Of a stretch of DNA of 51,906 nucleotides, positions 3,341 to 47,884 are shown in pieces (position 1 is the first letter of the stretch; the number at the start of each line of letters is the position of its first letter). The notes beneath the pieces were generated by a model that was given only the letters and a program-made list of their open reading frames with translations, did not search any database and was not told the origin of the DNA. The DNA is from a virus. The position numbers and the translations under genes were made by a program. The DNA lies in the IMG/VR virus record IMGVR_UViG_3300032240_001948, positions 1-51,906 of that record; one strand, written 5' to 3'.

Positions 3341-3596
3341 CTTTTCTTGGCGGAATTACAAATTCATCTGGGGTAATTATAACATAATTATATCCATACA
3401 TTTCACAAGTTTTGATTGCCAACTCATCATCCACTTCAACAGTAGTCATCTCTGGATAATCTTCTGCTTCTAATAATCCAGCATAACGTTCTGCATCATC
3501 TTCATCTTCAAAAAGATACAAAGTTTTTTCACCATCATCATCAATTACCGAATAGGCACCTTCCTCTTCTTTTCCTTTTATTGCAAGTAAATGCAT
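3309..3596 (-). CDS. DUF3110-domain small acidic protein
   Basis: This 95-residue acidic protein is inserted between gp47 and gp46. The core LYLFEDEDDAERYAGLLEAED matches the DUF3110 family, which is known mainly from cyanobacteria and plants and is carried by cyanophages. It is one of the clearer pointers to a cyanobacterial host. The function of the family is unknown. Both ends overlap neighbours: its start codon overlaps the gp47 stop (TAATG), and its last 32 bp lie inside the gp46 coding sequence. The three genes are therefore probably translated as a coupled unit. Whether it modulates the gp46/gp47 nuclease is speculation based only on position. Confidence 0.82.
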   Translation of the reverse strand: MHLLAIKGKEEEGAYSVIDDDGEKTLYLFEDEDDAERYAGLLEAEDYPEMTTVEVDDELAIKTCEMYGYNYVIITPDEFVIPPRKDDFVQTNKIS

Positions 3597-4639
3597 TATT
3601 CTACTTCCAAAGCTTCTTTATATACATCTCTGAGTAGTTTTTTAATTATGGTTTTATCCAAATCAAATTCCGACTCTTCCACATATTTATCTAAAATTGA
3701 TAATGTGTCTTCGGCAGAAATTTCTTCACAATCAACATTTCCGTCATTAATATCAACAATCTCTACCACCTTTAAATCTAATGGATTTGTTTTCAAGATT
3801 TTATCAACAAATTTATCAAATTTTAATTGATTTGTTTTTTGACGAACTACAACTTTTACAATCTTTTCTTCTAAGTATGAAGTATCAAATTTTTTATAAT
3901 CCGTATCTTCATAATATATTCTTTCAAATATATTGTATGGATTTTTAAAATATTCTAATTCATATGTATCTGTATCAAAGATATGAAATCCTCTTGTATC
4001 ATCTACATCATTCCAGAACATTTGGTAAGTATTTCCAAGATAAAATATCTTTCCATTATCTGATTTAGTATGGTAGTGACCTGTAAATACTCTATCAAAT
4101 TTATCAAATTTTTCTGGTTCCATTCCTTCGGTTTGAAGATGTCCAGGATAAGCAGCAAAACCAGATAGTTCAAGATGCCCAAAAACTACTTTTGCATTTG
4201 TTTTTTTAATTAAATTATAAGATTCTTCTTCATTATCAGAACAAATCCAAGGAAGCATTAGTGTATTCAAACCATCAATACAAAATTCTTTAGGATTAGA
4301 TATTGGTATTACATTATCATATTGTTGCAATAATGCATTAATAGCATTTACTTCATTTGAATTTTTATAATATGCATCGTGATTCCCTACAATATTATAA
4401 ACTTTAATACCAAGTTTTTCAAACCTATCATATACATTAGTTTTTGCCCATTCAAGTGCCCAATAATCAATTCCTTTACGATTATCAAAAGCATCACCCA
4501 AATGAACTACTGTCTTGATGTTTCTTTCTTCTAATTTAGGAAAAAACACATCATTATAAAATTTTGCAAAATAATCATGAAAAGACTTATTTGCTTTTTT
4601 AAAATTATAATGCGTATCCGTCAAAAGTCCGAGTTTCAT
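3596..4639 (-). CDS. 47: Recombination endonuclease subunit gp47 (Mre11-like nuclease)
   Basis: The product is a calcineurin-like metallophosphoesterase of 347 residues (T4 gp47: 339), the nuclease partner of gp46. The metal-binding motifs are in order: DTH at 8-10, GDAFDNR from 48, GNHDAYY from 85, GHLELSG with H155, and GHYHT with H188 and H190. The C-terminal third is variable and Lys/Glu/Asp rich, where Mre11 proteins bind their Rad50 partner. Its ATG overlaps the gp55 stop (ATGA) and its stop overlaps the start of the DUF3110 gene (TAATG), so the gp55-47-DUF3110-46 set is tightly packed. Confidence 0.97.
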   Translation of the reverse strand: MKLGLLTDTHYNFKKANKSFHDYFAKFYNDVFFPKLEERNIKTVVHLGDAFDNRKGIDYWALEWAKTNVYDRFEKLGIKVYNIVGNHDAYYKNSNEVNAINALLQQYDNVIPISNPKEFCIDGLNTLMLPWICSDNEEESYNLIKKTNAKVVFGHLELSGFAAYPGHLQTEGMEPEKFDKFDRVFTGHYHTKSDNGKIFYLGNTYQMFWNDVDDTRGFHIFDTDTYELEYFKNPYNIFERIYYEDTDYKKFDTSYLEEKIVKVVVRQKTNQLKFDKFVDKILKTNPLDLKVVEIVDINDGNVDCEEISAEDTLSILDKYVEESEFDLDKTIIKKLLRDVYKEALEVE

Positions 4640-21265: not shown

Positions 21266-21272
21266 TATTTAG
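21266..21272 (-). promoter_or_regulatory. Late promoter motif CTAAATA for gp15
   Basis: The minus strand reads CTAAATA, 20 bases before the gp15 ATG and overlapping the gp14 stop codon region. Confidence 0.4.
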
Positions 21273-22684
21273 TAATTCCCAAAAGGATTGCTTTCAGAAA
21301 AATCTAATATTTCATTTGCCTCTGATTGAATTATGGCATTTTCTGAATACTTATCATACAAATCATCTGTATAAATTTTTTGAATTGTGTAACTAGAATT
21401 GGATCCCCCTGCGGTTGTCCCCATTCCAATAATGGTTTCACCAATTGCAAAATAACCATCAGTGATTGAAACTTTTAATATTGATGTGGAATTATCCCAG
21501 TTTTTGACATATGCACTAGTTCCAGTAGAAACACCTTTAACTATTTCATTAAATACATAATTTCCAGTAGAAATTCCAGCAGGTGAAGAAATAGTAATAG
21601 TTGGAGATTGAGTATAACCAATACCAGCAGTCTTATATCTAATTGAGGTAACGATTCCAGAAGAGTTTAAAAGTGCTTCTGCAACTGCATTTATTCCACC
21701 AGAAGGAGCAGTTGAAATAGAAACAATTGGAGTAGATCCATAACCAATACCACCAGAATTTATAACAACTGGACCAAGAGAACCAGTCCCAAGTATTGCT
21801 GTTGCAATAGCACCAGATCCACTATCACTTATTATATTAACAGTGGGAATTGTCGTATATCCAATCCCTGGATTTATAACCAATATTCTATCAACTGAAA
21901 AACCAGTTCTACCAGATTTACTGGTCATAATTGCAACAGCAGTTGCATTTATTCCACCAGATGCTGCATTTGAAATTGAAATAGTTGGAGTGCTCAAATA
22001 GTATGCACCATCATTAATTAAATCAATTGCGTATACAGATTTTCCAAAAGGAGATGCAATTTGTGATGATGCTAAAGAAACTTGTGCTCGTGCTTGTGTT
22101 GCACCTAAACCAACCATTTGAAGAGTTTGAATATATCCAAAATCTTTAATAGCATTATCTACTTCTTCTATTGTAGTATCAACAATCTCATCTTCATATT
22201 CAAATACCTCACATCTCAATTCATAGATATAGAGATTGTTTAATTGATAAAAAGGTTTTTTCCCTTCTACATATTTTATTTCAAATATTGTGTTATCTAT
22301 AGGAAGATATATCAAATCACCTTCTTCTGGTCTATTTGATATTTTGACATTACTTTGAGAAGATAAAAATGGAGTTATAAAATTTTCATATCTATCTTTT
22401 GAAATTAATAAAGTTAACTCATCAGTTGTTCTTACACCAAATTTTGATAAAATATCTCCCTGTCCACCAAATCCTTCAAAATTTGTTATATACGCTTCCA
22501 ATCTATAATTATCATCAAATTTTGATGCGGTAATTTCTTTAATAATAGTATTTTGATTAATAATTTTTCTAGGAAGATATACAATATCTTGTCCATACAT
22601 TTTCAATTGTTCATTAATTAAATCTTGCACCAATCTTTGTTCACTTGGTGACCCTTGAAGAAAATATGGATTAAGAGGAGACAT
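21269..22684 (-). CDS. 14: Neck protein gp14, expanded by beta repeats
   Basis: This head completion and neck protein has 471 residues, far more than T4 gp14 (256). The N-terminal 200 residues are gp14: NPYFLQGSPSEQRLVQDL, YLPRKIINQNTIIKE, FEGFGGQGDILSKFGVR and QLNNLYIYELRCEVFEYEDE. The C-terminus SEANEILDFSESNPFGNY is also gp14-like. Between them (about 225-375) lie four or five repeats with the pattern (I/V).(N/I).G.GY...P.(I/V).IS....G..A.A.A, for example INPGIGYTTIPTVNI. The same repeat is found in gp8, the DUF4815 protein and the giant protein. The insert probably projects outward from the neck (inference). gp13 ends 5 bases upstream. Confidence 0.93.
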   Translation of the reverse strand: MSPLNPYFLQGSPSEQRLVQDLINEQLKMYGQDIVYLPRKIINQNTIIKEITASKFDDNYRLEAYITNFEGFGGQGDILSKFGVRTTDELTLLISKDRYENFITPFLSSQSNVKISNRPEEGDLIYLPIDNTIFEIKYVEGKKPFYQLNNLYIYELRCEVFEYEDEIVDTTIEEVDNAIKDFGYIQTLQMVGLGATQARAQVSLASSQIASPFGKSVYAIDLINDGAYYLSTPTISISNAASGGINATAVAIMTSKSGRTGFSVDRILVINPGIGYTTIPTVNIISDSGSGAIATAILGTGSLGPVVINSGGIGYGSTPIVSISTAPSGGINAVAEALLNSSGIVTSIRYKTAGIGYTQSPTITISSPAGISTGNYVFNEIVKGVSTGTSAYVKNWDNSTSILKVSITDGYFAIGETIIGMGTTAGGSNSSYTIQKIYTDDLYDKYSENAIIQSEANEILDFSESNPFGNY

Positions 22685-31640: not shown

Positions 31641-33221
31641 TTAAAACTCCAAAACTATTTTAATATCTTCTTTTTGACTTGAAGAAAGTGGAATTGCTGA
31701 TCTATTATCTATGTATATGATTTCACCAGACTTCTTATTATATTCTGCAGAAGAAATACCAGAAATAAATGTTTGCCCAAGTTGATATGGTGTGTTATTT
31801 ATTGTTGTAGTAGGACCGTTAAATCCTGTATCTATGCTTAAAACAGAACCAACAAAATTTGGAGAAGTACAGTTTATAGTTAATACTCCAGATCCAGATA
31901 CAGAAGAACTAAACTCATTAATTTTATAATTAACAAGTGCTGTTGCTAATCCTACTGGTTGGTAATATTTTAATATACCAGTTACATTATCCCAAGAAGC
32001 AACAAATCCAATTGCAGTAATACCAGTTCCCACTGTTTGTGTAATTACTGAGTCTACTGGATATGTAGTGCTTGTTGTGACACCTGCAAGTTTTAATGCT
32101 TTCAAAGCACTTACTTCTGCAGTATTTAAAAGTTGAGTGTCACTACCAAAAACAGTTGGGTTTTTGATGACACCAACTCTTGCAAAATCATTTCCTAAGA
32201 TAGTATCAGGATTTGATGAATCTGTTTGAAATCTTGAATATAAAAGAACACGATATGCCCCAAGTTCTCTGTAAATATCGTATCCATGCCCACCTTTTGG
32301 TGGAATGATAACATTAAATGACGCAAATGATCCTGTATTTGTTAATCCTGTAGGAACTCCATTTGCTCCTGGAATAAAATTTACGACACCATTTGTATAT
32401 CCACTTCCACCATCAGTAACAAAAATATCTGAAACTCTTCCAATAGAATCAACAGTTACCGTTGCCTTTCCTCCAGTACCATCACCTAAAATTGGAATAT
32501 TTGTAAAAGAATACGGAAGGCCACCACTATATTGATATCCAGAACCAGCATTTGTAATTGTTATAATTTGTATTTTTCCATCTATTGCATTATTTTTTAT
32601 AGAAATACTTTCACCAGTAGTTCCCCAACCTTCGGGAACAGGAATAAAATCAATTGAATCAAATTTTATAATTTCTGATGGTTTAATAGTGAAGAGATAT
32701 TTCCAAATATATCCATCACCACTTGTTCCTGCTACTCTTGGTTCTAAATCTACAAATGTAGGTTGATCGAATGATGGTTTTCCAGATGGTGTATTCGCAT
32801 CTGTTCCATTTTTTAAACAAACATAGACTCTTAAATCTTCATTAACTACATAATAATTTGAATCATATAATCTAGTTTTTTTAGTTACAGGAGTTTTATT
32901 GTATACAGAATAATCATCTCTATACATTTCATAAGTTGTTCCTGCTGACCATTGAACTTTTCTTATTACTCTTCTTACATCAGAACTCGTTATTTTTTTT
33001 AATGATATGATTGTCTGTTTTATTTTATTTTCATCAGAAAAACTGTCCAATGGATTTAATCCATCCCCCCAATTTGGAGATCCACCTGCTTGAGTGTTAC
33101 CACTGTTTGGTTGTCCCAAAAAAGCATAATAATTATTTGCAGTATTTCCTATTGAAGTAAAACTTTGAACAAAAGTTTCAGCATTCAATACTCTAAATTG
33201 ATCTGATATAATTGCTGGCAT
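31641..33221 (-). CDS. 8: Baseplate wedge subunit gp8, expanded
   Basis: This dimeric wedge protein of the baseplate has 526 residues, longer than T4 gp8 (334). The T4-like features are a start QFRVLNAETFVQSFTSIG, a middle GTSGDGYIWKYLFTIKPSE (T4: GDGYVWEYLFEI) and an ending GEIIYIDNRSAIPLSSSQ followed by EDIKIVLEF (T4: GEMIYMENRPPI..., EEINILFTF). An insert at about 220-297 carries two GxGY repeats (NAGSGYQYSG and DGGSGYTNGV). Another extra segment near 375-440 has Thr/Val-rich strands. It lies directly after the giant gene, in T4 order 6-7-8. A late-type motif precedes it. Confidence 0.9.
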   Translation of the reverse strand: MPAIISDQFRVLNAETFVQSFTSIGNTANNYYAFLGQPNSGNTQAGGSPNWGDGLNPLDSFSDENKIKQTIISLKKITSSDVRRVIRKVQWSAGTTYEMYRDDYSVYNKTPVTKKTRLYDSNYYVVNEDLRVYVCLKNGTDANTPSGKPSFDQPTFVDLEPRVAGTSGDGYIWKYLFTIKPSEIIKFDSIDFIPVPEGWGTTGESISIKNNAIDGKIQIITITNAGSGYQYSGGLPYSFTNIPILGDGTGGKATVTVDSIGRVSDIFVTDGGSGYTNGVVNFIPGANGVPTGLTNTGSFASFNVIIPPKGGHGYDIYRELGAYRVLLYSRFQTDSSNPDTILGNDFARVGVIKNPTVFGSDTQLLNTAEVSALKALKLAGVTTSTTYPVDSVITQTVGTGITAIGFVASWDNVTGILKYYQPVGLATALVNYKINEFSSSVSGSGVLTINCTSPNFVGSVLSIDTGFNGPTTTINNTPYQLGQTFISGISSAEYNKKSGEIIYIDNRSAIPLSSSQKEDIKIVLEF

Positions 33222-33249: not shown

Positions 33250-36200
33250 TTAAATGATACCACGAGTTCTATAAACAGTAGGACCGGAAGAAATTCCAAT
33301 TAAACCATTATCAACATTCAAAGTGAATGTTTTTGGTTTAAAGTTGGATCTATTGAAATAATTATAAATTTTACTCCAAGAGTAACGTCCATAGAATGTA
33401 TTTACACCAACAGAGACATTTATGGGATATCCAGATGGACCAGGAGCAAAATTGCATCCTACAGTCACAATTCCAGAATTAACATCTGTTGATACTCTTT
33501 CTGCTCTATATACACCGTCAAGATAAGTAGTTGCTGTTCCTACTTTTGATGCAGGATAATTGGATAATCCACCTAAACTAGTTGTAATTCCAGTAAGTGC
33601 ATGACCACAAATGCAATTACTATTTGAAATAATAAAATAATCACCAATACTAATTTGACTATAATTAATTCCAAAACTATTTAAGGATGAGTATCCAATT
33701 CCAATCGGATAACTATCAGATTTTAAAGTAAATGATATTGTAGAATTTGCTACACTAACATTTGTGATGGTTCCATAATCACCTTGTGCTGAAATTGAAT
33801 AAATCATTTCATTTTTTATAGTATCACTTTCAAATAATACTGGTAGATTGTAATTTTGAGGATGACCAAAACCACCATTAGTTATATTGACAGAACTTAC
33901 TTGACCATTTACTACATTTGCAGTTGCAGATGCTTTATTGTATGTTGGAGTTGCGTAAATTGCTGTTCCAGAAGATCCAACTGCAGAAGTTAATGCTAAT
34001 GAAGAATTGTAAATGATGTCATTTATTTTATTTGATTGATTTGTACTGCGATTTATCCAATTTGTCAAATCAAATGAGAAATACAATGTTCCAGAATCAC
34101 TCAGTGCATAATAAACATTTTCATAATATTTAATATTTTTTAAGTTATCTGAAATATTTGATGTAATTGTAGTCCAACTCGTTCCATTTGTAGAAGTTGC
34201 AATATAACCAGAATTACCAACTACAATATATTTTGTTCCATCCCAAATTACTTTATTGAGATTGATAGATGATATAATTGATGAATTTGTCCAAATCAAT
34301 CCATTATCAGAAGTAACTAATTGACCATTATTTCCAACACCAACAAATTGATTTTCATTTGTTGTAATACTATTTAAAGTATTAGGAGAAGATTGCGATT
34401 GAATGAAATTAGTAGAACCAACTCCAACAGCAGAGAATATTACACCAGAACTTCCAACTACAACCCAAGTGTCTTTTGACGATGAATATACAACATCATT
34501 AAAAGTTCCAACAAAAGAATTTGAAGAATAAGTGATATTGTTTAAAATATCTTGTGTTGCAGTTAATAAATTAAGTTTTTTCCAAGATGAAATTGTAGTT
34601 CCAATACCAACAGAATTTATGATAGTTCCAGTATTTCCAACTGCAACATAAACATTTGATGGTGATACATTAATTGCATTAAACGATATTGTCGTTCCAT
34701 AACCCAATGTACTATTTTTCCAATTAATTCCATTTACACTAGTACCAACAAGACTACTTGTTCCAACAGAAACAAATATATTACCATAAGAAATTGATTT
34801 AAATTCATATGAAGTAGTTAGTCCAACAGTTCCAGACCAATTGTATGTTATATCCTTTTTGTATATTCTTGATTGTGGAATAATAACATTTGGTGAAGTG
34901 TTGTTAATATAACCAGATCCAGCAAAAGAAACAACAACACTTGAAATAGTTGATCCTGAAGATACTATTGCTGTTCCAATTGCAGGAGAAATTTCACGAT
35001 TTTCAATGATTTCTACATTTCTTAAAGTTTGAGTCAAACCTTTATTTGAATCAATGTCAACAAATAATGGATATGCATTATCGACATATATTGACGAATC
35101 ACTTGGTAAAACTTGTTTGATAATTTGGGCAGATGGAATAATTCTTGATTTTAAATCTGGTCTTGATTTTGAATACAAAACACCATTAATTATGGTATCG
35201 GTGGTTTGTTTTGTCCAATCCATAGGTCTAAACACAGAAGCATTAATACCAAAACTATTATAAGTAAATGTATCTAATTGATCATATGTAACAATTTTTT
35301 TCACAACTCTATCAAATTGCGACCTAATTGTTTGATCGTATAAATCATTTTTAATTTTTATGTTATCTCCTGGTTTAATTGTTTTTGGTGGATCTATTTG
35401 TTCGACATCTAAATCTGATCCACGATAAAACAGGATATTGCATTTCGATCCTTTTTTTGGAGCTTCTTGGAATATAATTCTAGAATTTTGAACAGTGTAT
35501 GAATAATTTTGTTTTTTTACATTACTTAAATTGGTTAAAATTGAATATGAATAATTTGGTGATTGTAATATATCATCAATAAAAATGAAAATATTTTTAT
35601 TTGGATCCAAATCTGATCCATCAGAAACTCTAAATGCAAACACATCAGTAATTCCATTTTCAGTCACAGTAAGAGTAAATTTAGTTTTTACTCCATCAAA
35701 ATAATTAGAAATATCATCAAATTGTACAAATTGTCCTGGATAATATCCAGAAAACTTATCAGTCAAAACTTCTTGAACTGTAAGTCTAAATTCACTAAAT
35801 CCAGCACCAACAGTTGGATTTGTTGTAATTCCAGAAACTTTTAATATTTCTCCCACTTTATACCCATATCCTGGATTATCCAAATTAAATCCAATAATAC
35901 TTGATCCATTTCCAACTACAACAGAAACTTTAGCATCTGTTCCTACACCAGAAGAACCTCCCGCATATGTAAGATTTAAATTACTATATGATCTTGGTAT
36001 TTCAACTGATACAATTGGTAATGATGTGTTGGTATATCCAAATCCTGGATTTGCAATTGAAAGTGATGTGATTGTCCCACCAGAACCAACTGTTGCTGTA
36101 ATTGATGCTCCTGTACCAACTGTGGAGGCAATACTTATGTTTGGTGCAATTACATATCCTGATCCATATCCAGTCAAATAAACATTAGATATTGTTCCAG

Positions 36201-39200
36201 CAGCAGACACAGAGACAGTTGCAGACGCACCTACAAGAGGTTGATAACCATATCCAGTAGTGATGGCAACTCTTACAATTTTTCCAGCATTAGGAACACC
36301 ACTAATGAACTTGATTGTATTATTTCCTGGTGTATCAATAATAAAATCTTTTCCAGATGTCTGTGAAACATTATTGATTAAAATGATTGGATTATTGTTA
36401 ATGTTGGACACACTATTCAAAATAGTATTTGAATTTGTATATAAACCAACAACATTTTGATTATTTGATTTAAGTATAAAATTATTTCTTATAACTGTAA
36501 AAGTGGTTGTTGCAATCCCAATTATATTATTATGATTTGGAACTATTGTTATTGATCCAATTCCAATAGAATTGATTATAGTGTTTAATGGTAGAAGTAA
36601 ATTATTTGAATATTGTACATTAATTACATCACCAAGAGCAAACAAAGAAGTATCAATTCCAAGAATTGAAGAAGGATAATTTGCATCCAATGATCCAGTA
36701 AATATCCCAATTGGTGTTGATCTGCCAGTAAATTGTGTTGATATGTCATCTAAAATTAAATTTTTATCATTTGGTTTTGATATTGCATCAAATTTTCTTG
36801 AAAATGCTCTTCCTTCAAAACTTGATGTTATTGATAGTGAGGTTGTAAATCCAGTATTATTTGATGATTGTCCATATGTTATTTTTCCATATGGAGGTTC
36901 AGTGAAATAAATGACATCATTAACTATATTAAAATCCCCTCTCACAACAGTAACTGCTGATCCAGAATTGTGAGTATTTGCTATTGATCCTAAGAAACCT
37001 CTTTCTACATCAATTGAATTTGTTGATCCAATTCCAACATTTACAATTTTTAAATATTCATCATCAATTTGGAGAAAATCAAATCCACTAATTGAAGATA
37101 TTCCAGAACTTACATAAATCGTTGTCGATGAAATTCCAACATTTGAAGATAAAGTAGTATATAAATTTCTTCTATAAACTGGACTTTGGATAATATTATC
37201 AAGTTGAATTAAAACACTTGGATTTGGATTTTTTAATGCAAATGAATGACTACCAACTCCAACCGATGTTAAATATAACACATTTTCTGTTGTTGTATTT
37301 AAACCGGAAACTCTAAAATTGTTATTGTCTATTTTTTTAACATAAAGATTTTTTGGTAATTTATTTGAACCTAAAACAGTTGGAGTTATATAAACATTAT
37401 CCAATGATGTCGATCCACCAACATAAGTGCCAGCAATACTAATATTATCTGTTAATGCATATCCAACTCCACCATATGCAATAGAAATTGAATTGATAAT
37501 TCCACTACTATCCCTAGAAACATTAAATTTAGCACCAGTCCCAAATCCAGTCACAGATGTTCCAGGAATATTTGAATATGATTGATTTGATTGAGTCGAA
37601 ATACCAGTATTTGCTATTTTTGATACTTTAAATGATAAATCATTTGTTGGTGTAGTTCCTCCAATGTAAGTTCCAGAAATTGAAACAGTATTTCCAATGC
37701 CATAATAATTGCCACCATTATTCAATACCAATGAAGTTGAAATTGGTGTTCCTGTTCCATCATAAACAATAAATACACTGAATTTAGCATTAGTTCCAAT
37801 ACCACTTGTAGATTTTTGTGGGAATGGATTACCAAATCCATAAAATACATTTTTCGATGCAGATGAAGGAATAACAGCAGAAGTTCCAGATATTGTTGTG
37901 CTGATTGCAACATTATATCCATTTTCATAAATTGCACTTCCAATATAACCACCACCAGAAACTTCCATAATAATACTTGAATCTGTCGATGCAACAGATA
38001 GATATGGAATATTTCCACTTGTTTTTTGAACTATTACAGAACTCTCCAAAATTGAAGTTGTTGCAATACCAATTGGAGTATTATTTCCATATGAGTAAAT
38101 TATATTTTGTCCAGTTTGGAAATTATGATTAGGAATTGAAAAATATTGAGAAGATAAATTTACAGATGTAGTGATTGAATTTGAACTATCAAATTCTCTA
38201 TAAAATAATGGATAAAAAGAAGTTCCAATTGAATTTGTCAATTTGAATGAACTTAAACCAACTATAGAATTTCCTGGCAACAACCTGTTAAAAGTTAAGG
38301 TTTGTGTAGTTATTCCAGATATAACTTTATGTCCATAAAATGTTCCAATTCCAATTGAATTGATACCAATTGATATTATCGTAGTATCGATTGGATCTCT
38401 TAATAGTGTACTAAATCCAATATAATCTCCAATTTGCAGTCCAGATGTAGATACACCAAGATTAAATGGATATAATGAATCAAATGTAACAGAAGTTGTT
38501 GCAATAGAAGTATATGTCTTTGTTCCAGTGAATTGATCACTTATATCATTAATTTGTAAAACTTTATTTGTGTTGCATAATAAGTATGGAGTAAGATCTA
38601 CACCATCTAATACTACCGATTCTACAGAACCATCTTCAAATATATTATCATCAATAGCAGTTGCAAAATTATTTCTAGTATTAAATGATGCTAAATTGTC
38701 AATCTCTACCAATAATGATAACGAAGACGCAGTAGAAACAATCATATTTGAAGATTTTGCAATTCCAATATTAACTGGACCATCAGTAGGAATTCCAATA
38801 ACATTTAAATCGGAAAATTCTTTATATCCAGATGGATGCACTAAAGATTTTACTGGTTCTTTCCATTTATCATATGAAATTTGACTCTTTATCGCATATG
38901 AAAATTTTTGATAATAATTATTATCTGAAATTCTTTGAAGATAATCATTAGTAATACCAACTGGATCACTGAAATTGTTAATTTTATCTCTTGATACTCC
39001 TAATGTTGTTTTTAGTTTGAATTGATTTATATTTTTTACTGTTCCATTTAGTTTGGAATTTTTTCCATACAATTTATTACCAACTCGTAAATCACCTTTG
39101 CAATTAATCATTCTTATTTCATTGATATCATTGTCCCAACCATTTTCCATGACGGTTGCGGAAAAAATATTATTTCCAGAATTATCATAACCAAAAACAG

Positions 39201-42200
39201 ATTCACCTGAGGTATAACTTAAATCATCAACAATAAACATTTGGAATTTGGCAATATCTTTTTGATTGACCACATAACCAGGACCAAATCTAATATCATA
39301 AATTCCAAAATTAGTACTAATACCAGATGCATTATAAGTTACAGTGTAATTGATGGTACTTATTCCAGTCACAGTGAATGATTGATAATTATAATCTTTT
39401 GAATTATAATTATTTCTTATTATTGGATTTCCCCCTGTATCATACTCATCAAAAATTCTACATCTTTCGATAAAAATTTTATCACCAATTGAGAATGGAA
39501 ATTCGACATTTGAACTTCCATAAGTGTTAGAAAACAGTGGATAAATTTGATTATCTACGTTAATGAGTTCTAAAGTTACATCATTTCCAGAAATTTTAAT
39601 ATCATTGATATCATAACCATTTGAATTATTTGTTGCTATTATATCTAATGGTGCTGACAAATTATTAGTATTTTGAACAATAGATACTGATGCTACTGAT
39701 TGACCCTGTAATGATGCAGATAGTTTTATATTATCATTTCCAATTACTTTTAAAATCGGAGGATAATTATAATTTTTTCCACCAGTAATAATTCCAACAT
39801 AATCAACTCTAGAAATATCCTTAATTTGTGCTACTGCTGGAACTCCAAGATATGGATTGAGAGTGACATCTGTTGGATAATCAAATCCATCTTTAACTCT
39901 TTCCAATAGATCAATTTTTCCTAAATTATTCGAATCTGCTCTTAAAATAGAATTTGTTCCAATTCCAGATGTTATTGAAGTTATTTTTGGAAGTTTTTTA
40001 TATCCTTTTCCAGATGCATTTATTTTTATTTTTGAAATTGGACCTTTTGCGTTTAAAGAGTCTGTATCATAAAATATTGAAGTTATCCCAGAAGTAGATG
40101 TGTATGATGTAGTTTCTGGTTTTTTTGTTAAATCAAATTTGAATGAAGTACTTCCAATTCCAATTATTGAATACTCTTTATTATAAACACTCTTATTTAA
40201 TTTTATTTGATTTGAATTTAATACTTCAGAATCAGAAGAAATTTGCTTTTGATTATTTGATGCAAAATCTTTTGCAATAAAATTATAATATATTTGATTT
40301 GGATAACTTATTGTTTGTGTTGTTAATATAAGATTATCATAATTATATGTTTCTAATTCTTTTGTAAAATTCCTATCACTATAGAGAACTAGTTGCATAT
40401 TATTCAGACTTGAATCTGAAGTATCAAAATTGATAGCGTTTCCTTGAGTTGCGTTTATTTGTGGATTTATTTTTGCAAAATAATGGGTTCCTACACCAGA
40501 AGATGTTAATAATACAGTTGAAATTCCAACATTTGCATCATATCCAAAATTACACAAACTAATATTGTCTGGATTTTCTTTTAAAATAAAATATATTGAA
40601 TTATCACTCAATCCACCAACAGGAGAATTTCCATCTGAATAATATACAACCTTATCTCCAGTAACAAAAGAATTGTTTGGAATATTTACAGTTGAATTTG
40701 AAGTACTAATTCCAGTAGAAGAGTCAAATGCAATTTTTTCTGTTGTTATTTTTCTTATAATAGGATCATATCTAAAAGTAATCGTTTCATTTTTATTTGG
40801 GAAAAGATTGAATATTACTTTATCACCAGTAGTTAATTCATGAGTTTGTGCAGTCGAAACATTTACAGAATAGTTTTCAACTCTTCCTTGAATTAAACTA
40901 TAATTTGTTGTCAATGAATGAGAATATCCAACGTTATAATTACCTCCAAAATACAATGAATTTAATTGTGTTCCAATTCCAGATGAAGTAGTGAATCCTA
41001 ATGTAGATAATCCAACAAAATCAACTCCAAAATTCAATGCATAAACAGTTTGTCCATCTTGAAGTCTAAATGTTGTCCCTGTCCCAGTATTTGAAACAAC
41101 AAGACCTTGATTTGATAATCCAGTACTATAAACTAATTGTTGACCAGTATAAAAAGTGTGATTTGGTATATAAATTGATCTTGATGGAACAAATATATTT
41201 GTAACACCAATTCCAGAAACAAAATAATTTGTTCCAGAAGTTCCAACACCAACACTATTGGATGGGTTGAAATATATTACATCATTTTTATATGATGATG
41301 AAGTTATGTTTTCTTGTATAAAATTAAATTTAGTTGGCAATAAACTTACAGAAGATATACCTGCAGTATGAACTCCAGAAAAACCATCATAACGATTTAC
41401 AATAAATGATGATTTTTCTGATAAAATATTAGTAATTTTTAATACTTCTGAATCTATTTGAATATAATCATTAATTTCAAATCCAGAAATATCTGTAACT
41501 GAAATAAAAGTAGATACACCAGTCAAAGACTGACTTAACAGTGAACTAGTCAATCCAACAGTTTTTTGTTTTACATTAATTATTTTATAACCTTCTAAAT
41601 TTTTATAATTTGAATTTGATATTGATGATACAAGAACTTGATCTTGATCAAGTAAATTATGTGGTGTTCCAGTTACTCCAAATACTTTATTTGATTTATT
41701 GTAAAATACAACATCATTAAAAGTAGATATTCCAACTACAATATTACTTATATCTTTTCCTTTAACTCTTGATACAACTGCCGAAGCACCAGTACCTTCT
41801 GTAAATTCATTATTAAAATTTAAATTATCATTAACTTTATAATCATTTCCAGAATCATAAATTGTTATGGAATTTATTCCAGATGATAAAGTTTTTGTGA
41901 CAATAAAATCTTGTTTGTATTTTTTATCTACGGAATTCAATAAACCATAACTGGATTGATTTGAATTAATAAAATATGGACTAGTATTTCTTACAATATC
42001 AATATTTTTAAAATTTATATTTTGATTAAATTGATCATCATAATTTTTTAAAATTGGATTATTTTTAAACTTATTACCAATTACATATGGATAAGTATTT
42101 GTGGAAAAATATGCATATGTTCCATTTGGAAATTTTGGTGAGTTAGGTAAATATTTTCCATTATATTCATCCAAATCACCAACTGAGTAAGAATATTGAT

Positions 42201-45200
42201 AATCTTGAACAAAAAATCCATCAACATAATTAGGTGGTCTTAATTGTGGATTAGTTTCTTTTAGTAATTTATAACTGGATTTTACAGGTCTATATGAAGA
42301 TCCATCCTTTATATTTGACCCGTAAATTGGATTTCCATCATATGCCCAACCAAGTATTGGATAATTGTCTTCTATTCCATCTTTTACCTTTGTCTTCAAA
42401 CTTGCTGGAGGATAAAAATGAACAAATTTTAAACCCAAATCTTCATTTATGTTTGGTACAATATATCCATCATCATCAGAAAGAGTATTTTTTGCTACTT
42501 GATTTATTTTCCATTCATAAACATTGCTTCCAAATAATACCCCTGATCCTCTTCTTTGTAATGTAAGTTGAGTATTATTGTCATATCCAATACCACCATT
42601 TAATATTTGTACAGACGATAATTTTCCATTTTGAATAATTGGTATAATATCTGCATATTTTCCATTGCCATTAACATCACTAATAACAATATCTACATCA
42701 TTTCCATATCCACTTCCATAATTCAATATTTGAACATCAACAATTGTTCCATTTAGTATTGATGGTTTTAAAATTGCTTCTGAAATATTTGAAATTTTAA
42801 TATCTGGTTTTCTGTGGAAATTGATAATATCCAAACACCCATACCCAACTCCAGAATCTTGAACAAAAACACTTTCGATTGGACCAGTAACAATTGGTTG
42901 AAGGACTGGTTGAACCACTGATGTTTGTGCAATTCCAGGAAGTGCTTCAATTTTTATTGTAATTGGAGGGTATGAAAAAGTATGAGAATCGGTGATACTT
43001 GTAATTCCTGTAAGATTTACATATCTTTTATTAATATAATTTGAATCTGTAAATAAAGTTCCAATTCCAGCATCAGAAAGTTTGAAATTATTTTCATCAA
43101 TGACAGTTACAAAATATTGAGTTGTAGTAGATAAACCACCAATAGGATTATTTGTATATGAATATATTATTATGTCTTTATTATTAAAATTATGTCCATT
43201 TGCAGTAATATAATTATCGTAAGTATTAATTCCAGAAGAGATTGTAATGGATTTATTTGAATACCCAGATCCAGAATTTTTTACATATACTTTATTAATT
43301 GTATTCTTGGAATTTAAAGTTTTGAATGAATGAATACCAGAACTAATTCCAACAATATCAATATTATTTGTTTTATTTAATGCATCATTTAAATTTTTAT
43401 AAAGTTTTATTTGATTACTTGTTACTATTCCGACAAAATAAACTGCATCTGATGATAATGCTGAATCTACATATCCTGCTGTAAATGGATTAGTATCACG
43501 ATATGTTATACTATTATTTCCATTTGAACTATAAATTACCTGTTCACCATCATTAAAATTGTGATTTCCAGTAAAAGTAATAATATCAGTGCTAAAATTT
43601 ACTCCAACAGAATCACCTTTAAATGGTGATATGATTCTTGCTTTTACTAAATTTGGTTCAAGAACAGCACCAGATCCATTTCCACCTTCAATTGTAATTT
43701 TTGGTTTTGTTTGATAACCAATTCCAGGAGAACTGATTTTGATTTCTTGTACACTTCCAGAAATATTAGGAGTTACAATTGCTCCTGTTCCAGTATCATC
43801 GGAAACAACAAGTGTTGGAGGATTGATCGCATCATATCCAGATCCACCTTTTTCTACAAAAACACTATCAAGTTTTCCATAATAAATGCTTTCATTTAAA
43901 ACGGTAGGTGAATACAATTCAACACCATTAATTAAAATTCCGATTGCACGATTTGTTGTTGATTTGTCTTGATTGTAATCAAAAATATTTTCTTTTTGTT
44001 TTAGATTGAATTTTTTAAGTAATTTTTGATGATTTAATTGTTTTCTATCATTTGTGTTGCTATTGTAATAACCTTCTTTTATAATATAATCTGCCGATGA
44101 AGAAATTCCAGAAATATAACTTCCTTTGTATAAATCACTTTGATTAAATGATAGATAAAATTGATTTGAATTAATTCTTTTAATAAAATAATAACTACTT
44201 GAAATTCCAGAACCAGGTGAAGAAATATAACGTATTTTCTCACCTGTTTGTAAATTATGAGTAGTTGTTGTAAATATACTTCCTACACCTGCCTGAACAT
44301 TATATTGATCAATTTGTGAAGTAATAGGATAGTTTGGAATACCACTAGATGCGACAAAGAAATTATTAAAATCATAATCAGAATAAGTATTTTGTACTCC
44401 TGCTGGCAAAATACTTATTTCAGAAAAATTAGAACTAGATCCTTTTTGAATTGTTTTGGTTAATACATTTTTATTTGATATGTTCGTATTTGTCTTAACC
44501 CTTACTTCTTTGGAAGAAAAATTATAATCAGTTACTTGTATACTAATTGGAATATCATTTATGTCATTTGTATTTGTGAATACTACTGTTTCTCCAATAA
44601 TAAATTTTACATCATCATAGGTATTAAATACATATTCATCTAGAGATCCAGTAATTTTTTCTTTAAATGAAATATCATGAGATGTTGGAATATTATAAAT
44701 CCAACTATTTAATTGTACATTATCATTTAAATCTGTTCCAAACGTCAATAGAGATATTTTATCACCAACTCTTATCTTTTTGGTTTTTGAATAATCAATA
44801 TCACTAATAATATTAATTAATCTAAATTCAATTAGTGATCCATCATCAAGATGAGAATATAATAAATTCTTTTCTAAAACAACATCATTGTATTGTAAAT
44901 TTGAAGTTAATCCAGTTACACCAAGAAATTGATTTGTTGTTTTATCTGAATATTGGATTTCAATAGGATTTGATAATTCCGTTGGATAAACAGTAAGGAT
45001 AGAAGTTGTAAATCCAATTGTAGAATCTACTAAAATCGAACTAGAACCAGCAGAAACTGATTCAGATACATTAGTTTTTTTAGTTACATTGAAATTTAAA
45101 ATAAATGAAGTATCATCAAGAGAAATTTCATATAAATTTTTTCCTTGCAAAGGACGATATTCTACATTATAAATTGCTGCACTTGCTGTTCCGACTCCAA

Positions 45201-46002
45201 AAATAGTTTGGAATAAACTTTTTCCTCGTAACTCTACTGGATCTCCACCACTTACTTTTTCTACTAAAATATTTTTAGTGACAAAACTTTTGATGTCAGA
45301 TGGTCTAAGTAAATAATCTTTTGGTTTAATTACATCAATTTCATTACCAAAAAGAACACGAAACAGAATTTTGAAAGAAGCATCTGTTCCTTTTGAAATA
45401 TAAAAATCTTTTGCTCTACTTAAAATTGTTTGTAAGTTTATGCCAGAATAAAATTCTCTACCTTCAAATCCTGGTAAAAATTGAGTTTTAAATTTTTCAA
45501 ATATTTTTTCAAAAAAGATTAAACTTAAATTATTAACAGTAGAGTTTTCAGCATGTTCTGCTGCATTTGTTGAAGTAAAATTTAAAAATTCAACATTATT
45601 TGATTGCGAAAGACTATCAACTCCACTAAATCCACGAATACAACCAGTGAAAGAAGTTGAAGTTTTTCCTGTATATGTAATGATTTCATCATTAATTTTT
45701 AATAATCCATATTTACTTGGAAACCCATTTGTATGATTTACATTGATCGTATCATCAAATGCAAGAATATTCGATAATACAATACAAGGAACTTTTGTAG
45801 TATAGAAAGTTTCATCATTGAAATTCTCTATACTTTTGTACTTGTTTAAATTGTTTGATAAATCTACAATTCCTGTTTGATATTCTTGAGAAATATAATA
45901 TTGCTGCAAGAATTCCTTAAATAACGGATAATCTTCATTTAAAAACTCTGGAATTTGAGATTCAACCAAAGATTGAATTTTTACTGATTTGATTTCCGTC
46001 AT
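33250..46002 (-). CDS. Giant baseplate protein in gp7 position (4250 aa; YHYH domain, beta-propeller-like segment)
   Basis: A single open frame of 12.75 kb sits between gp6 and gp8, where T4 has gp7 (1032 aa). The first 75 residues (VESQIPEFLNEDYPLFKEFL) and residues about 160-300 (FEKFKTQFLPGFEGREFYSG; FYISKGTDASFKILFRVLFG) are the conserved N-terminus of cyanophage proteins at this position. A YHYH domain lies at about 1195-1310 (YPILGWAYDGNPIYG ... LDEYNGKYLPNSPKFPNGTY). At least 15 GxGY repeats and three IDDE/ERG modules (about 74-140, 1490-1555, 2950-3018) are spread through it. Residues about 3720-4018 hold repeats of the type FVGVGNNGQLVTSDNGLIWT, like BNR/Ycf48 propeller blades. HNF..G..VIYS / YFV motifs also recur. 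It is probably a wedge component carrying surface-exposed modules; homology to T4 gp7 is not shown. Confidence 0.85.
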   Translation of the reverse strand: MTEIKSVKIQSLVESQIPEFLNEDYPLFKEFLQQYYISQEYQTGIVDLSNNLNKYKSIENFNDETFYTTKVPCIVLSNILAFDDTINVNHTNGFPSKYGLLKINDEIITYTGKTSTSFTGCIRGFSGVDSLSQSNNVEFLNFTSTNAAEHAENSTVNNLSLIFFEKIFEKFKTQFLPGFEGREFYSGINLQTILSRAKDFYISKGTDASFKILFRVLFGNEIDVIKPKDYLLRPSDIKSFVTKNILVEKVSGGDPVELRGKSLFQTIFGVGTASAAIYNVEYRPLQGKNLYEISLDDTSFILNFNVTKKTNVSESVSAGSSSILVDSTIGFTTSILTVYPTELSNPIEIQYSDKTTNQFLGVTGLTSNLQYNDVVLEKNLLYSHLDDGSLIEFRLINIISDIDYSKTKKIRVGDKISLLTFGTDLNDNVQLNSWIYNIPTSHDISFKEKITGSLDEYVFNTYDDVKFIIGETVVFTNTNDINDIPISIQVTDYNFSSKEVRVKTNTNISNKNVLTKTIQKGSSSNFSEISILPAGVQNTYSDYDFNNFFVASSGIPNYPITSQIDQYNVQAGVGSIFTTTTHNLQTGEKIRYISSPGSGISSSYYFIKRINSNQFYLSFNQSDLYKGSYISGISSSADYIIKEGYYNSNTNDRKQLNHQKLLKKFNLKQKENIFDYNQDKSTTNRAIGILINGVELYSPTVLNESIYYGKLDSVFVEKGGSGYDAINPPTLVVSDDTGTGAIVTPNISGSVQEIKISSPGIGYQTKPKITIEGGNGSGAVLEPNLVKARIISPFKGDSVGVNFSTDIITFTGNHNFNDGEQVIYSSNGNNSITYRDTNPFTAGYVDSALSSDAVYFVGIVTSNQIKLYKNLNDALNKTNNIDIVGISSGIHSFKTLNSKNTINKVYVKNSGSGYSNKSITISSGINTYDNYITANGHNFNNKDIIIYSYTNNPIGGLSTTTQYFVTVIDENNFKLSDAGIGTLFTDSNYINKRYVNLTGITSITDSHTFSYPPITIKIEALPGIAQTSVVQPVLQPIVTGPIESVFVQDSGVGYGCLDIINFHRKPDIKISNISEAILKPSILNGTIVDVQILNYGSGYGNDVDIVISDVNGNGKYADIIPIIQNGKLSSVQILNGGIGYDNNTQLTLQRRGSGVLFGSNVYEWKINQVAKNTLSDDDGYIVPNINEDLGLKFVHFYPPASLKTKVKDGIEDNYPILGWAYDGNPIYGSNIKDGSSYRPVKSSYKLLKETNPQLRPPNYVDGFFVQDYQYSYSVGDLDEYNGKYLPNSPKFPNGTYAYFSTNTYPYVIGNKFKNNPILKNYDDQFNQNINFKNIDIVRNTSPYFINSNQSSYGLLNSVDKKYKQDFIVTKTLSSGINSITIYDSGNDYKVNDNLNFNNEFTEGTGASAVVSRVKGKDISNIVVGISTFNDVVFYNKSNKVFGVTGTPHNLLDQDQVLVSSISNSNYKNLEGYKIINVKQKTVGLTSSLLSQSLTGVSTFISVTDISGFEINDYIQIDSEVLKITNILSEKSSFIVNRYDGFSGVHTAGISSVSLLPTKFNFIQENITSSSYKNDVIYFNPSNSVGVGTSGTNYFVSGIGVTNIFVPSRSIYIPNHTFYTGQQLVYSTGLSNQGLVVSNTGTGTTFRLQDGQTVYALNFGVDFVGLSTLGFTTSSGIGTQLNSLYFGGNYNVGYSHSLTTNYSLIQGRVENYSVNVSTAQTHELTTGDKVIFNLFPNKNETITFRYDPIIRKITTEKIAFDSSTGISTSNSTVNIPNNSFVTGDKVVYYSDGNSPVGGLSDNSIYFILKENPDNISLCNFGYDANVGISTVLLTSSGVGTHYFAKINPQINATQGNAINFDTSDSSLNNMQLVLYSDRNFTKELETYNYDNLILTTQTISYPNQIYYNFIAKDFASNNQKQISSDSEVLNSNQIKLNKSVYNKEYSIIGIGSTSFKFDLTKKPETTSYTSTSGITSIFYDTDSLNAKGPISKIKINASGKGYKKLPKITSITSGIGTNSILRADSNNLGKIDLLERVKDGFDYPTDVTLNPYLGVPAVAQIKDISRVDYVGIITGGKNYNYPPILKVIGNDNIKLSASLQGQSVASVSIVQNTNNLSAPLDIIATNNSNGYDINDIKISGNDVTLELINVDNQIYPLFSNTYGSSNVEFPFSIGDKIFIERCRIFDEYDTGGNPIIRNNYNSKDYNYQSFTVTGISTINYTVTYNASGISTNFGIYDIRFGPGYVVNQKDIAKFQMFIVDDLSYTSGESVFGYDNSGNNIFSATVMENGWDNDINEIRMINCKGDLRVGNKLYGKNSKLNGTVKNINQFKLKTTLGVSRDKINNFSDPVGITNDYLQRISDNNYYQKFSYAIKSQISYDKWKEPVKSLVHPSGYKEFSDLNVIGIPTDGPVNIGIAKSSNMIVSTASSLSLLVEIDNLASFNTRNNFATAIDDNIFEDGSVESVVLDGVDLTPYLLCNTNKVLQINDISDQFTGTKTYTSIATTSVTFDSLYPFNLGVSTSGLQIGDYIGFSTLLRDPIDTTIISIGINSIGIGTFYGHKVISGITTQTLTFNRLLPGNSIVGLSSFKLTNSIGTSFYPLFYREFDSSNSITTSVNLSSQYFSIPNHNFQTGQNIIYSYGNNTPIGIATTSILESSVIVQKTSGNIPYLSVASTDSSIIMEVSGGGYIGSAIYENGYNVAISTTISGTSAVIPSSASKNVFYGFGNPFPQKSTSGIGTNAKFSVFIVYDGTGTPISTSLVLNNGGNYYGIGNTVSISGTYIGGTTPTNDLSFKVSKIANTGISTQSNQSYSNIPGTSVTGFGTGAKFNVSRDSSGIINSISIAYGGVGYALTDNISIAGTYVGGSTSLDNVYITPTVLGSNKLPKNLYVKKIDNNNFRVSGLNTTTENVLYLTSVGVGSHSFALKNPNPSVLIQLDNIIQSPVYRRNLYTTLSSNVGISSTTIYVSSGISSISGFDFLQIDDEYLKIVNVGIGSTNSIDVERGFLGSIANTHNSGSAVTVVRGDFNIVNDVIYFTEPPYGKITYGQSSNNTGFTTSLSITSSFEGRAFSRKFDAISKPNDKNLILDDISTQFTGRSTPIGIFTGSLDANYPSSILGIDTSLFALGDVINVQYSNNLLLPLNTIINSIGIGSITIVPNHNNIIGIATTTFTVIRNNFILKSNNQNVVGLYTNSNTILNSVSNINNNPIILINNVSQTSGKDFIIDTPGNNTIKFISGVPNAGKIVRVAITTGYGYQPLVGASATVSVSAAGTISNVYLTGYGSGYVIAPNISIASTVGTGASITATVGSGGTITSLSIANPGFGYTNTSLPIVSVEIPRSYSNLNLTYAGGSSGVGTDAKVSVVVGNGSSIIGFNLDNPGYGYKVGEILKVSGITTNPTVGAGFSEFRLTVQEVLTDKFSGYYPGQFVQFDDISNYFDGVKTKFTLTVTENGITDVFAFRVSDGSDLDPNKNIFIFIDDILQSPNYSYSILTNLSNVKKQNYSYTVQNSRIIFQEAPKKGSKCNILFYRGSDLDVEQIDPPKTIKPGDNIKIKNDLYDQTIRSQFDRVVKKIVTYDQLDTFTYNSFGINASVFRPMDWTKQTTDTIINGVLYSKSRPDLKSRIIPSAQIIKQVLPSDSSIYVDNAYPLFVDIDSNKGLTQTLRNVEIIENREISPAIGTAIVSSGSTISSVVVSFAGSGYINNTSPNVIIPQSRIYKKDITYNWSGTVGLTTSYEFKSISYGNIFVSVGTSSLVGTSVNGINWKNSTLGYGTTISFNAINVSPSNVYVAVGNTGTIINSVGIGTTISSWKKLNLLTATQDILNNITYSSNSFVGTFNDVVYSSSKDTWVVVGSSGVIFSAVGVGSTNFIQSQSSPNTLNSITTNENQFVGVGNNGQLVTSDNGLIWTNSSIISSINLNKVIWDGTKYIVVGNSGYIATSTNGTSWTTITSNISDNLKNIKYYENVYYALSDSGTLYFSFDLTNWINRSTNQSNKINDIIYNSSLALTSAVGSSGTAIYATPTYNKASATANVVNGQVSSVNITNGGFGHPQNYNLPVLFESDTIKNEMIYSISAQGDYGTITNVSVANSTISFTLKSDSYPIGIGYSSLNSFGINYSQISIGDYFIISNSNCICGHALTGITTSLGGLSNYPASKVGTATTYLDGVYRAERVSTDVNSGIVTVGCNFAPGPSGYPINVSVGVNTFYGRYSWSKIYNYFNRSNFKPKTFTLNVDNGLIGISSGPTVYRTRGII

Positions 46003-46003
46003 C

Positions 46004-47884
46004 TTATCTTGTATAATATCCGTTTACGTAACTTGAAGAAACTGCGTATTGAGTTCCTGAAACATTTTGACCAGAAGAAAGTGTGTCCTCTATCATATTT
46101 ACTACTATGTTAGGAATATTTAGTTCCAAATAAATGTCCTTCACTGAGATTACATCATTAGATTCTGGCAATGCTTCGATCTGAATTCCCTCCGCATTTT
46201 TTGATGAAGTAATTATAACAGGATTTAATCTAATTTCTCCTCTTTTATAATTAACTGTTCCCGCATTGGTATCTGTAATTACGGGAATGTTATTAACAAG
46301 TTTGAAATATATTATTGTTCCCCTTTCATTATCAATGGGTTTATCAGTTAGATATAAGGTATCAGCAACATCCTTAATTGTAAATCCAGAAGATCTTATA
46401 TTATATCCAAATCCATTATCTGATGTTTTCTTTAAGTGGAAACTATTTCCATAACATATTTCATAATTAGCAAGTACATTTAATTGTGGTTGGAGATCTC
46501 TTCTAATTTTAATAGTTGTAATGTTTGATGTGATGGCATTACTTGTATTATCAATCAAAGATACCAATTTACTATATTTAAATCTTCCTCCAAAATTATT
46601 TACTTCTGATGATGCCGCATAAGTTTTAATTGTGTTATAAACTTTTGATTGCAAATCAAGAACATTTGAAACCATAGATTTGTTATAATATACATTGATT
46701 TGAGATTCAATATACAAATATTTCAAATCAATTATTTCTTGTTCAATTCCAGCAATAGTATATTGCTTTAATTGTTTTTTAATATCTTGCTTTGTAATTT
46801 GTGATAAAAATGAACCATTTCTTGGTTTAATCGATATTAAAACTTTACCATATTGTGGAGGATCAAGTTCATCTCCTCCATATGCATTTACTGATTCTAC
46901 ATTTGGAAAAAGATAAGTAATCAATCCTTTATAATCATTTGCAGTTACTGCTCTGTACTGTGAAGAATATACTCTTGGACCTAGATACTTAACTGATTCA
47001 GTCGATTCAATCTCATCTCCATTTTGTGAAGATTGTATAGTAGTTAATAATGAAATACCACTTGTAATTGGAGATCCATTATTATCTACTAATATACCAG
47101 AAAATGTAAAATTAGAAGCACCATTTGCACTACTACCATTAGTAACAATATAGGTAATAAACAAACTACTTCCACTGATTGGTTTTTTTCCTAAAATATT
47201 ATCTCCAAATAAAATTTCATATTTTTCATCTGCTACTTCTTGAAGTAAAAATATTTTACTATTTGAATCTACATTAAAAATATTTGAATACTGTTTATAT
47301 TCTTCTGTAACATCAGTATGAACAAAAGTTCTAATTGTTGATGTATCAACATTTGGATTTGGAATTATAAATCTTTGATTTGGTTGAGATGAATCAACTA
47401 CAAATGTTTTTGTTAAATATGATCCTTCATAAATTACAACGTCATTAAAAGTTGCAATTCCACTATCATCTACATTTATTGTAATATCTTCTGGTATTGA
47501 AAATATATAATTTCCATTCTGTGCGGCACCAAGAGCAACAATTCCAGACTTCAAAGTAACAGTTCTTGATTTTAATGTTGATACATTTGCACTAAAACTA
47601 ACTTTTGCTGTTGATGCTTTTTTTGATCTTGGTACATATCCAATATTTCTTGCAAGAGAAACTACATTCTCTCTTAAAGTAGCTGAATCTATAAAAGATT
47701 CATTTACCGCCATATTTGTATTAAAAGAATTAATATAAGAATTATATGCTAATAGATCAATTAACGTGGAAAAGTTAGATCCCTCAAAATCAAAATCCGT
47801 AAAATTACTATTCGATCTCAGATAATCTTTAATCTGAGATCGAAGAGAATTAAAATCTAAATTTGTAAATTGATTAAAAGCCAT
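46004..47884 (-). CDS. 6: Baseplate wedge subunit gp6
   Basis: This is the core wedge protein that forms the inner ring of the baseplate with gp53 and gp7. It has 626 residues (T4: 660). The N-terminus FTNLDFNSLRSQIKDYLRSN is followed by the strongly conserved STLIDLLAYNSYINSFNTNM, then AVNESFIDSATLRENVVSLA and RNIGYVPRSKKASTA. The middle has the J-domain-like pattern YRAVTANDYKGLITYLFPNV with GKVLISIKPRNG. The ending is variable, with Ser/Asn. Its ATG overlaps the gp25 stop (TAATG), and the giant gene starts 1 bp after its stop. Confidence 0.96.
   Translation of the reverse strand: MAFNQFTNLDFNSLRSQIKDYLRSNSNFTDFDFEGSNFSTLIDLLAYNSYINSFNTNMAVNESFIDSATLRENVVSLARNIGYVPRSKKASTAKVSFSANVSTLKSRTVTLKSGIVALGAAQNGNYIFSIPEDITINVDDSGIATFNDVVIYEGSYLTKTFVVDSSQPNQRFIIPNPNVDTSTIRTFVHTDVTEEYKQYSNIFNVDSNSKIFLLQEVADEKYEILFGDNILGKKPISGSSLFITYIVTNGSSANGASNFTFSGILVDNNGSPITSGISLLTTIQSSQNGDEIESTESVKYLGPRVYSSQYRAVTANDYKGLITYLFPNVESVNAYGGDELDPPQYGKVLISIKPRNGSFLSQITKQDIKKQLKQYTIAGIEQEIIDLKYLYIESQINVYYNKSMVSNVLDLQSKVYNTIKTYAASSEVNNFGGRFKYSKLVSLIDNTSNAITSNITTIKIRRDLQPQLNVLANYEICYGNSFHLKKTSDNGFGYNIRSSGFTIKDVADTLYLTDKPIDNERGTIIYFKLVNNIPVITDTNAGTVNYKRGEIRLNPVIITSSKNAEGIQIEALPESNDVISVKDIYLELNIPNIVVNMIEDTLSSGQNVSGTQYAVSSSYVNGYYTR

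Follow-up and report, generated by a model that had tools for sequence, protein, structure and literature searches.

Among the T4-like phages of the sea, cyanomyoviruses are abundant, and the rim of the baseplate is the least T4-like part of their virion. The DNA examined here (referred to below as the window) is a linear virus fragment of 51,906 nucleotides (51.9 kb), for which the closest isolates in a terminase comparison belong to the Kyanoviridae (about 77%). Between the genes for gp6 and gp8, where phage T4 encodes gp7, the window carries one reading frame of 4250 codons. This locus raises the questions of whether so long a frame is a single genuine gene, whether its product is gp7, and how such a chain would be arranged at the baseplate.

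The frame starts with an ATG at 46002 and stops at 33250, and a frame check found zero internal stops; the uninterrupted gene described in the earlier note is therefore present, on the minus strand, which that note had left unstated. The genes on this strand follow the order gp25, gp6, gp7, gp8, a DUF4815 protein, a 123-aa ORF and then gp13 onward to gp23. This is the cyanomyovirus order, and the gp25/gp6/gp7/gp8 arrangement is identical in annotated relatives, so that the position between gp6 and gp8 is upheld both by synteny and by the Pfam and PHROG 438 matches of gp8. The 4250-codon frame reads as a genuine gene because the GC content at codon position 3 is about 0.10 throughout (against 0.36 at position 1 and 0.38 at position 2), its codon usage correlates at 0.98 with that of the adjoining structural genes, the alternative frames examined across it contain 284–486 stops, and the chance of so long a frame at the composition of the window is about 10^-167. 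An assembly artefact joining separate genes, which had been named as a concern, is ruled out, since a fused and colinear frame recurs in independent contigs (4107, 4287, and 4630 aa on other IMG/VR contigs) and in isolates (3884, 4107, 4156, 5172, and 5195 aa). The boundaries compiled in Table 1 are of use for structural work, as they delimit the residues assigned to the wedge, those that would project from it, and the points where the chain is cut or exchanged in relatives. Residue positions in the 4250-aa window protein are prefixed W.

Table 1. Features of the gp7 locus in the window, with the evidence on which each was assigned.
Feature	Residues	Nucleotides	Strand	Evidence
Giant gp7 orthologue	4250 aa, 463 kDa	33250..46002	minus	PHROG 2885, E 0
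N-terminal gp7 region	W1-430	44713..46002	minus	HMM of 15 cyanophage sequences
Core segment A (ILSRAKDFYISKGTDASFKILFRVLFGNEIDVI)	W185-227	45322..45450	minus	T4 gp7 722-756, hhalign P 4e-8
Stretch of about 2,110 residues between A and B, largely beta modules	W228-2338	38989..45321	minus	A-B spacing, conservation profile
Tandem pair of small GxGY beta modules	W713-804	43591..43866	minus	Module profile
YHYH domain (PF14240)	W1137-1308	42079..42594	minus	E 8e-22; 78.6 bits vs cut-off 25
Core segment B (YYQKFSYAIKSQISYDKWKEPVKSLVHPSGYKEF)	W2339-2407	38782..38988	minus	Small gp7s, E 8e-20 to 9e-11
Variable joint; gene break of relatives, possible extra gene	W2500-3150	36553..38505	minus	Conservation profile, gene structures of relatives
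Conserved part of C-terminal unit; separate gene in many relatives	W3155-3740	34783..36540	minus	Conservation profile, relatives
Propeller-like cassette	W3740-4010	33973..34785	minus	Repeats; present or absent among relatives
Conserved C-terminal end	W4010-4250	33253..33975	minus	Conservation profile
gp6, baseplate wedge, expected partner of gp7		46004..47884	minus	Position and synteny with annotated phages
gp8, baseplate wedge		31641..33221	minus	Pfam Phage-Gp8 E 3e-10; PHROG 438
DUF4815 protein, "VrlC" in relatives; follows gp8, not gp7	2500 aa	24132..31634	minus	Profile matches

A giant gp7 is an already known kind of protein and is the rule in cyanomyoviruses. The window protein matches PHROG 2885 ("baseplate wedge subunit", 4179 positions), its residues 5-2499 aligning with positions 8-2553 of the profile and its C-terminal part with positions 3539-4098. 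A tblastn search with the first 1000 residues found relatives in 466 public phage records, mostly of Synechococcus and Prochlorococcus phages, where they are usually annotated as "gp7" or "baseplate wedge initiator". The gp7 proteins of cyanomyoviruses such as S-SSM7, Sf-FS3, S-SCSM2R, S-CAM9, P-SSM2, and Bellamy (PHROG 2885) share with it their position, giant size and a YHYH domain, and they are colinear with it over W1-2500 and the C-terminal part; identity to the closest isolates is about 41–44% over the first 1000 residues. The proteins at the gp7 position in our panel measure 503, 767, 874, 896, 1937, 3224, 3884, 3895, 4067, 4107, 4120, 4156, 4307, 4314, 4749, 5172, 5195, 6064, 6619, and 7312 aa, and with such a range the length of 4250 aa is ordinary and falls in the middle. 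The earlier note had correctly recognized a structural protein at the gp7 position, but its treatment of this protein as an unusual outlier does not hold, nor does its statement that only the first 300 or so residues are conserved; its description of the genome as compact goes beyond what a linear fragment can show. Residues 2301-2450 are found in 94–95 loci and residues 3251-3600 in 109–115, as compared with 97–101 for residues 1-300; conservation extends from one end of the chain to the other, dipping at about 450-550, 2500-2600, and 3100-3200.

Two orthologues have been identified in virions by mass spectrometry, in agreement with the structural role that had been proposed. These are the "baseplate wedge initiator" S-SZBM1_208 (6619 aa), with 71 peptides and 13.5% coverage (PMC9146016), whose gene carries both of the core segments A and B described below, and S-CREM2 gp122 (1937 aa), with 91 unique peptides and 27% coverage (PMC10665884), which is recognized by both core profiles (3e-53 and 4e-21). 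The record of the S-SCSM1 orthologue (4120 aa) also notes "virion protein". As orthologues are present in virions, absence of the gp7 product is unlikely, and the window protein is very likely a virion structural protein.

It has been reported that T4 gp7 is absent from pelagi- and cyanomyophages and is replaced in them by VrlC (PMC7029224). If so, the giant would be an unrelated cyanophage protein occupying the place of a lost gp7, for which VrlC substitutes. To examine descent, an HMM was built from 15 cyanophage N termini. In a search among 483 ORFs it matched residues 727-758 of T4 gp7 (E 5e-8), and it also matched the gp7 proteins of Caulobacter phage Cr30, Stenotrophomonas phage YB07, pelagiphage Mosig and methylophage Melnitz-2. 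Within this N-terminal region the stretch W5-36 is conserved and is likely a helix-turn-helix of the core bundle; a model of a small gp7 has helices at the equivalent place. The hhalign comparison that defines segment A was run against four T4-type gp7s. A second conserved segment, B (YYQKFSYAIKS..WKEPVKSLVHPSGYKEF), was found towards the C terminus of the small gp7s with E values of 8e-20, 8e-17, 5e-13, and 9e-11, and a reverse search recovered the window protein (E 2e-7); in T4 gp7 it is weak, at residues 863-885 (hhalign P 6e-4, HMM E 0.02). With HMMs made from the small gp7s only, segment A was recovered from all giants tested and segment B from most, in the right order and above reversed controls, the match for segment B in S-T4 (L013) falling under the best control and S-CAM7 being absent among the listed matches.

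T4 gp7 was not convincingly found when it was sought with the small-gp7 profiles alone, so that the link to T4 is carried by the profile of the giants, the hhalign comparison and a ranking of folds. For the latter, an AlphaFold model of a small pelagiphage-type gp7 was used, with a mean pLDDT of 63.7 that was lowest at the core helices. The best two of its 307 PDB matches were 9F4A (E 5e-5), the baseplate of a Klebsiella KP1 variant, and 5IV5 (E 5e-3), the T4 baseplate, with TM scores of 0.07–0.08; since the model is poor and these scores are low, only the ranking carries weight. The matched chains have 1031 and 1004 residues, respectively, a gp7 sequence of 1032 aa is present in both entries, and we infer from their length that PDB chains A0 and BJ are gp7. 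A sequence search of the whole window protein against the PDB gave no match.

These results bear directly upon the published statement. In favor of an unrelated protein are the failure of that study to find T4 gp7 in pelagi- and cyanomyophages and the fact that the match to T4 gp7 is highly significant over only about 35 residues. It is opposed by the P value for segment A, by the fold ranking and by the transitive links through the gp7s of Cr30, YB07, and the pelagiphage, and its second element is ruled out: VrlC is the DUF4815 protein that follows gp8, and such proteins match the gp7-core HMM with E 0.02 or worse, below inclusion. We regard the replacement of gp7 by an unrelated protein as very improbable. 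The gp7 core in the cyanophage giants contradicts the claim of absence (PMC7029224), because segment A matches T4 gp7 with P 4e-8. The window protein is almost certainly a gp7 orthologue, and this identity, together with a core in two pieces, corrects the statement that gp7 is missing.

The arrangement of the two core segments differs markedly among these proteins. In T4 gp7 (1032 aa; PDB 5HX2, 5IV5), which lies in the same gp6-gp7-gp8 order and contains segment A and, downstream of it, probably segment B, the greater part of the chain comes before A (727-758) and the two segments are about 106 residues apart. In the window protein, by contrast, A lies near the N terminus, about 2,110 residues separate it from B, and about 1,840 residues follow B. 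The small gp7s (Mosig, 874 aa; Melnitz-2, 896 aa; Cr30, 767 aa; YB07, 503 aa) have both segments in the order seen in the window, but only 261–557 residues lie between them, and they have no counterpart of the second unit, which measures about 1,750 residues. The spacing is 2112–2232 residues in the clade of the window, 1585 in S-H9-2 and 2695–2796 in P-SSM4, S-MbCM100, and S-SZBM1, in which segment A is set off from the N-terminal helices by about 500 additional residues. That the gp7 core comes in two pieces with arms projecting from it is, in our judgment, probable. We lean towards the more specific reading that the core is interrupted after A by an external arm (about 2,100 residues, or about 2,700–2,800 in another clade), is completed at B, and is followed by a second arm that is covalent in some phages and separately encoded in close relatives. 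Since the first arm hardly varies in length within a clade, it may serve as a spacer or as a ring-forming element at the baseplate rim. What is new here is the interruption of the core by about 2,100 residues and the frequent cutting of the gene into two or three in close relatives; together with the degenerate YHYH site described below, the two-piece core and the recurrent splitting are the parts most worth following up.

The putative first arm is composed largely of small modules. The region W740-1340 is predicted to consist mostly of beta modules and the YHYH domain (pLDDT 86), which fits the chain of small beta modules anticipated earlier. Its model gave no significant match to PDB folds (best E 2.6e-3, TM 0.11), and its best match among viral predicted structures was Bellamy gp7. 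Matches to the fold of Uba1 (111 columns, TM 0.10) were taken as chance. In addition to the tandem GxGY pair, further copies of this module lie near W904, 1089, 1130, 2676, 3273, 3314, 3688, and 4083, about ten in all. Such modules (W713-804, W3273-3364) are also present in the neck protein gp14 (window 21269-22684; profile made from gp7 only, E 2e-7), and PHROG 460 (head closure) matches gp7 with E 4e-20; these two matches suggest that modules are passed between proteins of the neck and of the baseplate. We do not claim them for gp8, where the gp7-only profile gave E 0.007 and the reversed control 0.0067.

The YHYH domain, which had been recognized from the letters, is amply confirmed by its Pfam match. 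Domains of this type have been proposed to be metal-dependent hydrolases (PMC7824862), which raises the possibility that the inserted modules are mainly an envelope enzyme, the arm delivering a tail-borne metal hydrolase. The domain is indeed highly significant, and Asp1222, Asp1267, Asp1278, and Tyr1227/1298 are conserved between the window and the bacterial proteins, the FDG-type residue Asp1222 being kept in all of the phage domains. However, in 14 bacterial YHYH proteins the histidines of YHxH, the His of HSPI and the Asp of FDG are invariant, whereas in 64 phage domains the YHxH histidine positions are mainly occupied by other residues (I/V/T and F/L/Y). Neither of these histidines is present in the window, where position 1213, a His in 58 of the 64 phage domains, is Asn, and position 1280 is Tyr. 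With the histidines of the metal site gone from the domain that most hints at an activity, the proposed hydrolase function is unlikely in the window protein, and we consider an arm that mainly delivers an enzyme improbable.

From about W2500 onward the chain constitutes a second unit, whose fused or split state has switched at least three times. In a quick tree of 49 N termini this state changed six times, with three of the changes forced by well-supported branches. While the window phage has one gene, S-SSM7 and Sf-FS3 have three (about 3000, 340, and 2500–3000 aa), DSL-LC02 has two, and the closest neighbor in the tree (L025, 62% over the N terminus) has genes of 2791, 753, and 1678 aa. The break in split relatives falls within about W2400-3150, and the 340-aa gene found there carries the N-terminal domain of T4 gp9/10 (E 4e-11). 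A separate gene for the second arm, sometimes accompanied by a gp9/10-type connector, would indicate a component of the rim that needs no covalent link to gp7. Part of the variable joint (W2752-2862) shares a stretch with the DUF4815 (VrlC) protein (33%, E 2e-6). In S-SKS1 (L023, 122000-146000) the gp7 region is mostly unannotated and apparently consists of several open pieces (710, 1113, and 739 aa), which may reflect sequencing error or another split form.

Near the end of this unit are about six repeats of the type VxVGxxGxIxxSxDGxxW. The propeller-like character suggested for this stretch receives some support from its self-similarity (60, against 50 or less in 200 shuffles) and from a match, below threshold, to Pfam DUF6242; a sequence search of it against the PDB gave no match. 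The stretch is present in the window, S-SSM7, S-CAM9, and others, but precisely absent from S-SM2, Bellamy, P-SSM2, and L035, and at the level of sequence it is a removable cassette. It occurs in 51 loci and is lacking in 32, counts that include near-identical contigs and are thus not independent. An exchangeable propeller-like cassette and the gain and loss of modules are what a host-contact surface might display, and the length of the chain would permit a fibre. The window protein could thus itself be the receptor-binding adhesin, a fibre tipped by its propeller-like and C-terminal domains, and fibres encoded elsewhere would then be secondary. However, the C-terminal end belongs to the conserved stretches of the protein, which is not typical of adhesin tips, and the gp9/10-type connector at the break in split relatives points to fibres that are attached separately; we therefore view an adhesin as possible but rather unlikely.

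Our preferred interpretation, which we hold to be likely, is that the protein serves as gp7 in a contractile-tail baseplate of the T4 type and represents the giant form of this subunit usual in cyanomyoviruses, with a two-piece core and lateral arms. In phage XM1 the N-terminal helices of the gp7 orthologue gp17 are part of the (gp16)2-gp17 core bundle and its flexible segments bind the tail spikes (PMC10457771), and in AlgoCIS the gp7-like part of Alg12 is laterally exposed and contacts tail fibres (PMC8894135). Both are exposed wedge subunits in contact with fibres or spikes and are far smaller than the window protein, to which we liken them from their published descriptions. By the logic of XM1 the core pieces would dock in the wedge, while the insert of about 2,110 residues and the C-terminal 1,840 or so would project. 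Judging from T4-type and XM1 structures, there would be one gp7 per wedge and six per baseplate, with segments A and B joining the N-terminal helices at the (gp6)2-gp7 core bundle and the trifurcation. After A the chain would leave the wedge as a long arm on its lateral face, comprising the small beta modules and the YHYH domain, return at B, and then depart once more, W2500-4250 forming a second arm that is exchangeable in part and bears the propeller-like cassette. This arrangement is most naturally read as a large structure lying outside the wedge core. By analogy with these systems, the inserted and appended arms at the baseplate rim would more likely than not dock tail fibres and touch the cell, while the host recognition put forward in the earlier note is a candidate function only; the lateral arms, six per virion, would then hold fibres or contact the cell surface.

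Some further observations concern gp7-like sequences elsewhere. Proteins encoded between gp7 and gp8 match the N-terminal gp7 profile in S-MbCM100 (L010:29786-33931, E 1.5e-9, annotated gp14) and in P-SSM4 (L017:26346-30677, E 1e-7), which points to partial gp7-like modules in further proteins of the baseplate region. S-MbCM100 also has a second gene labeled "gp7" upstream of gp25 (L010:3940-6969; T4-GC 507, 1009 aa); its product gave no match to the gp7 core profile, and the label therefore looks wrong. Lastly, a sequence filed as part of a Planctomycetaceae genome bin (L278, PAPJ01000027.1) encodes a fragment of phage gp7 and is probably viral sequence inside a bacterial bin.
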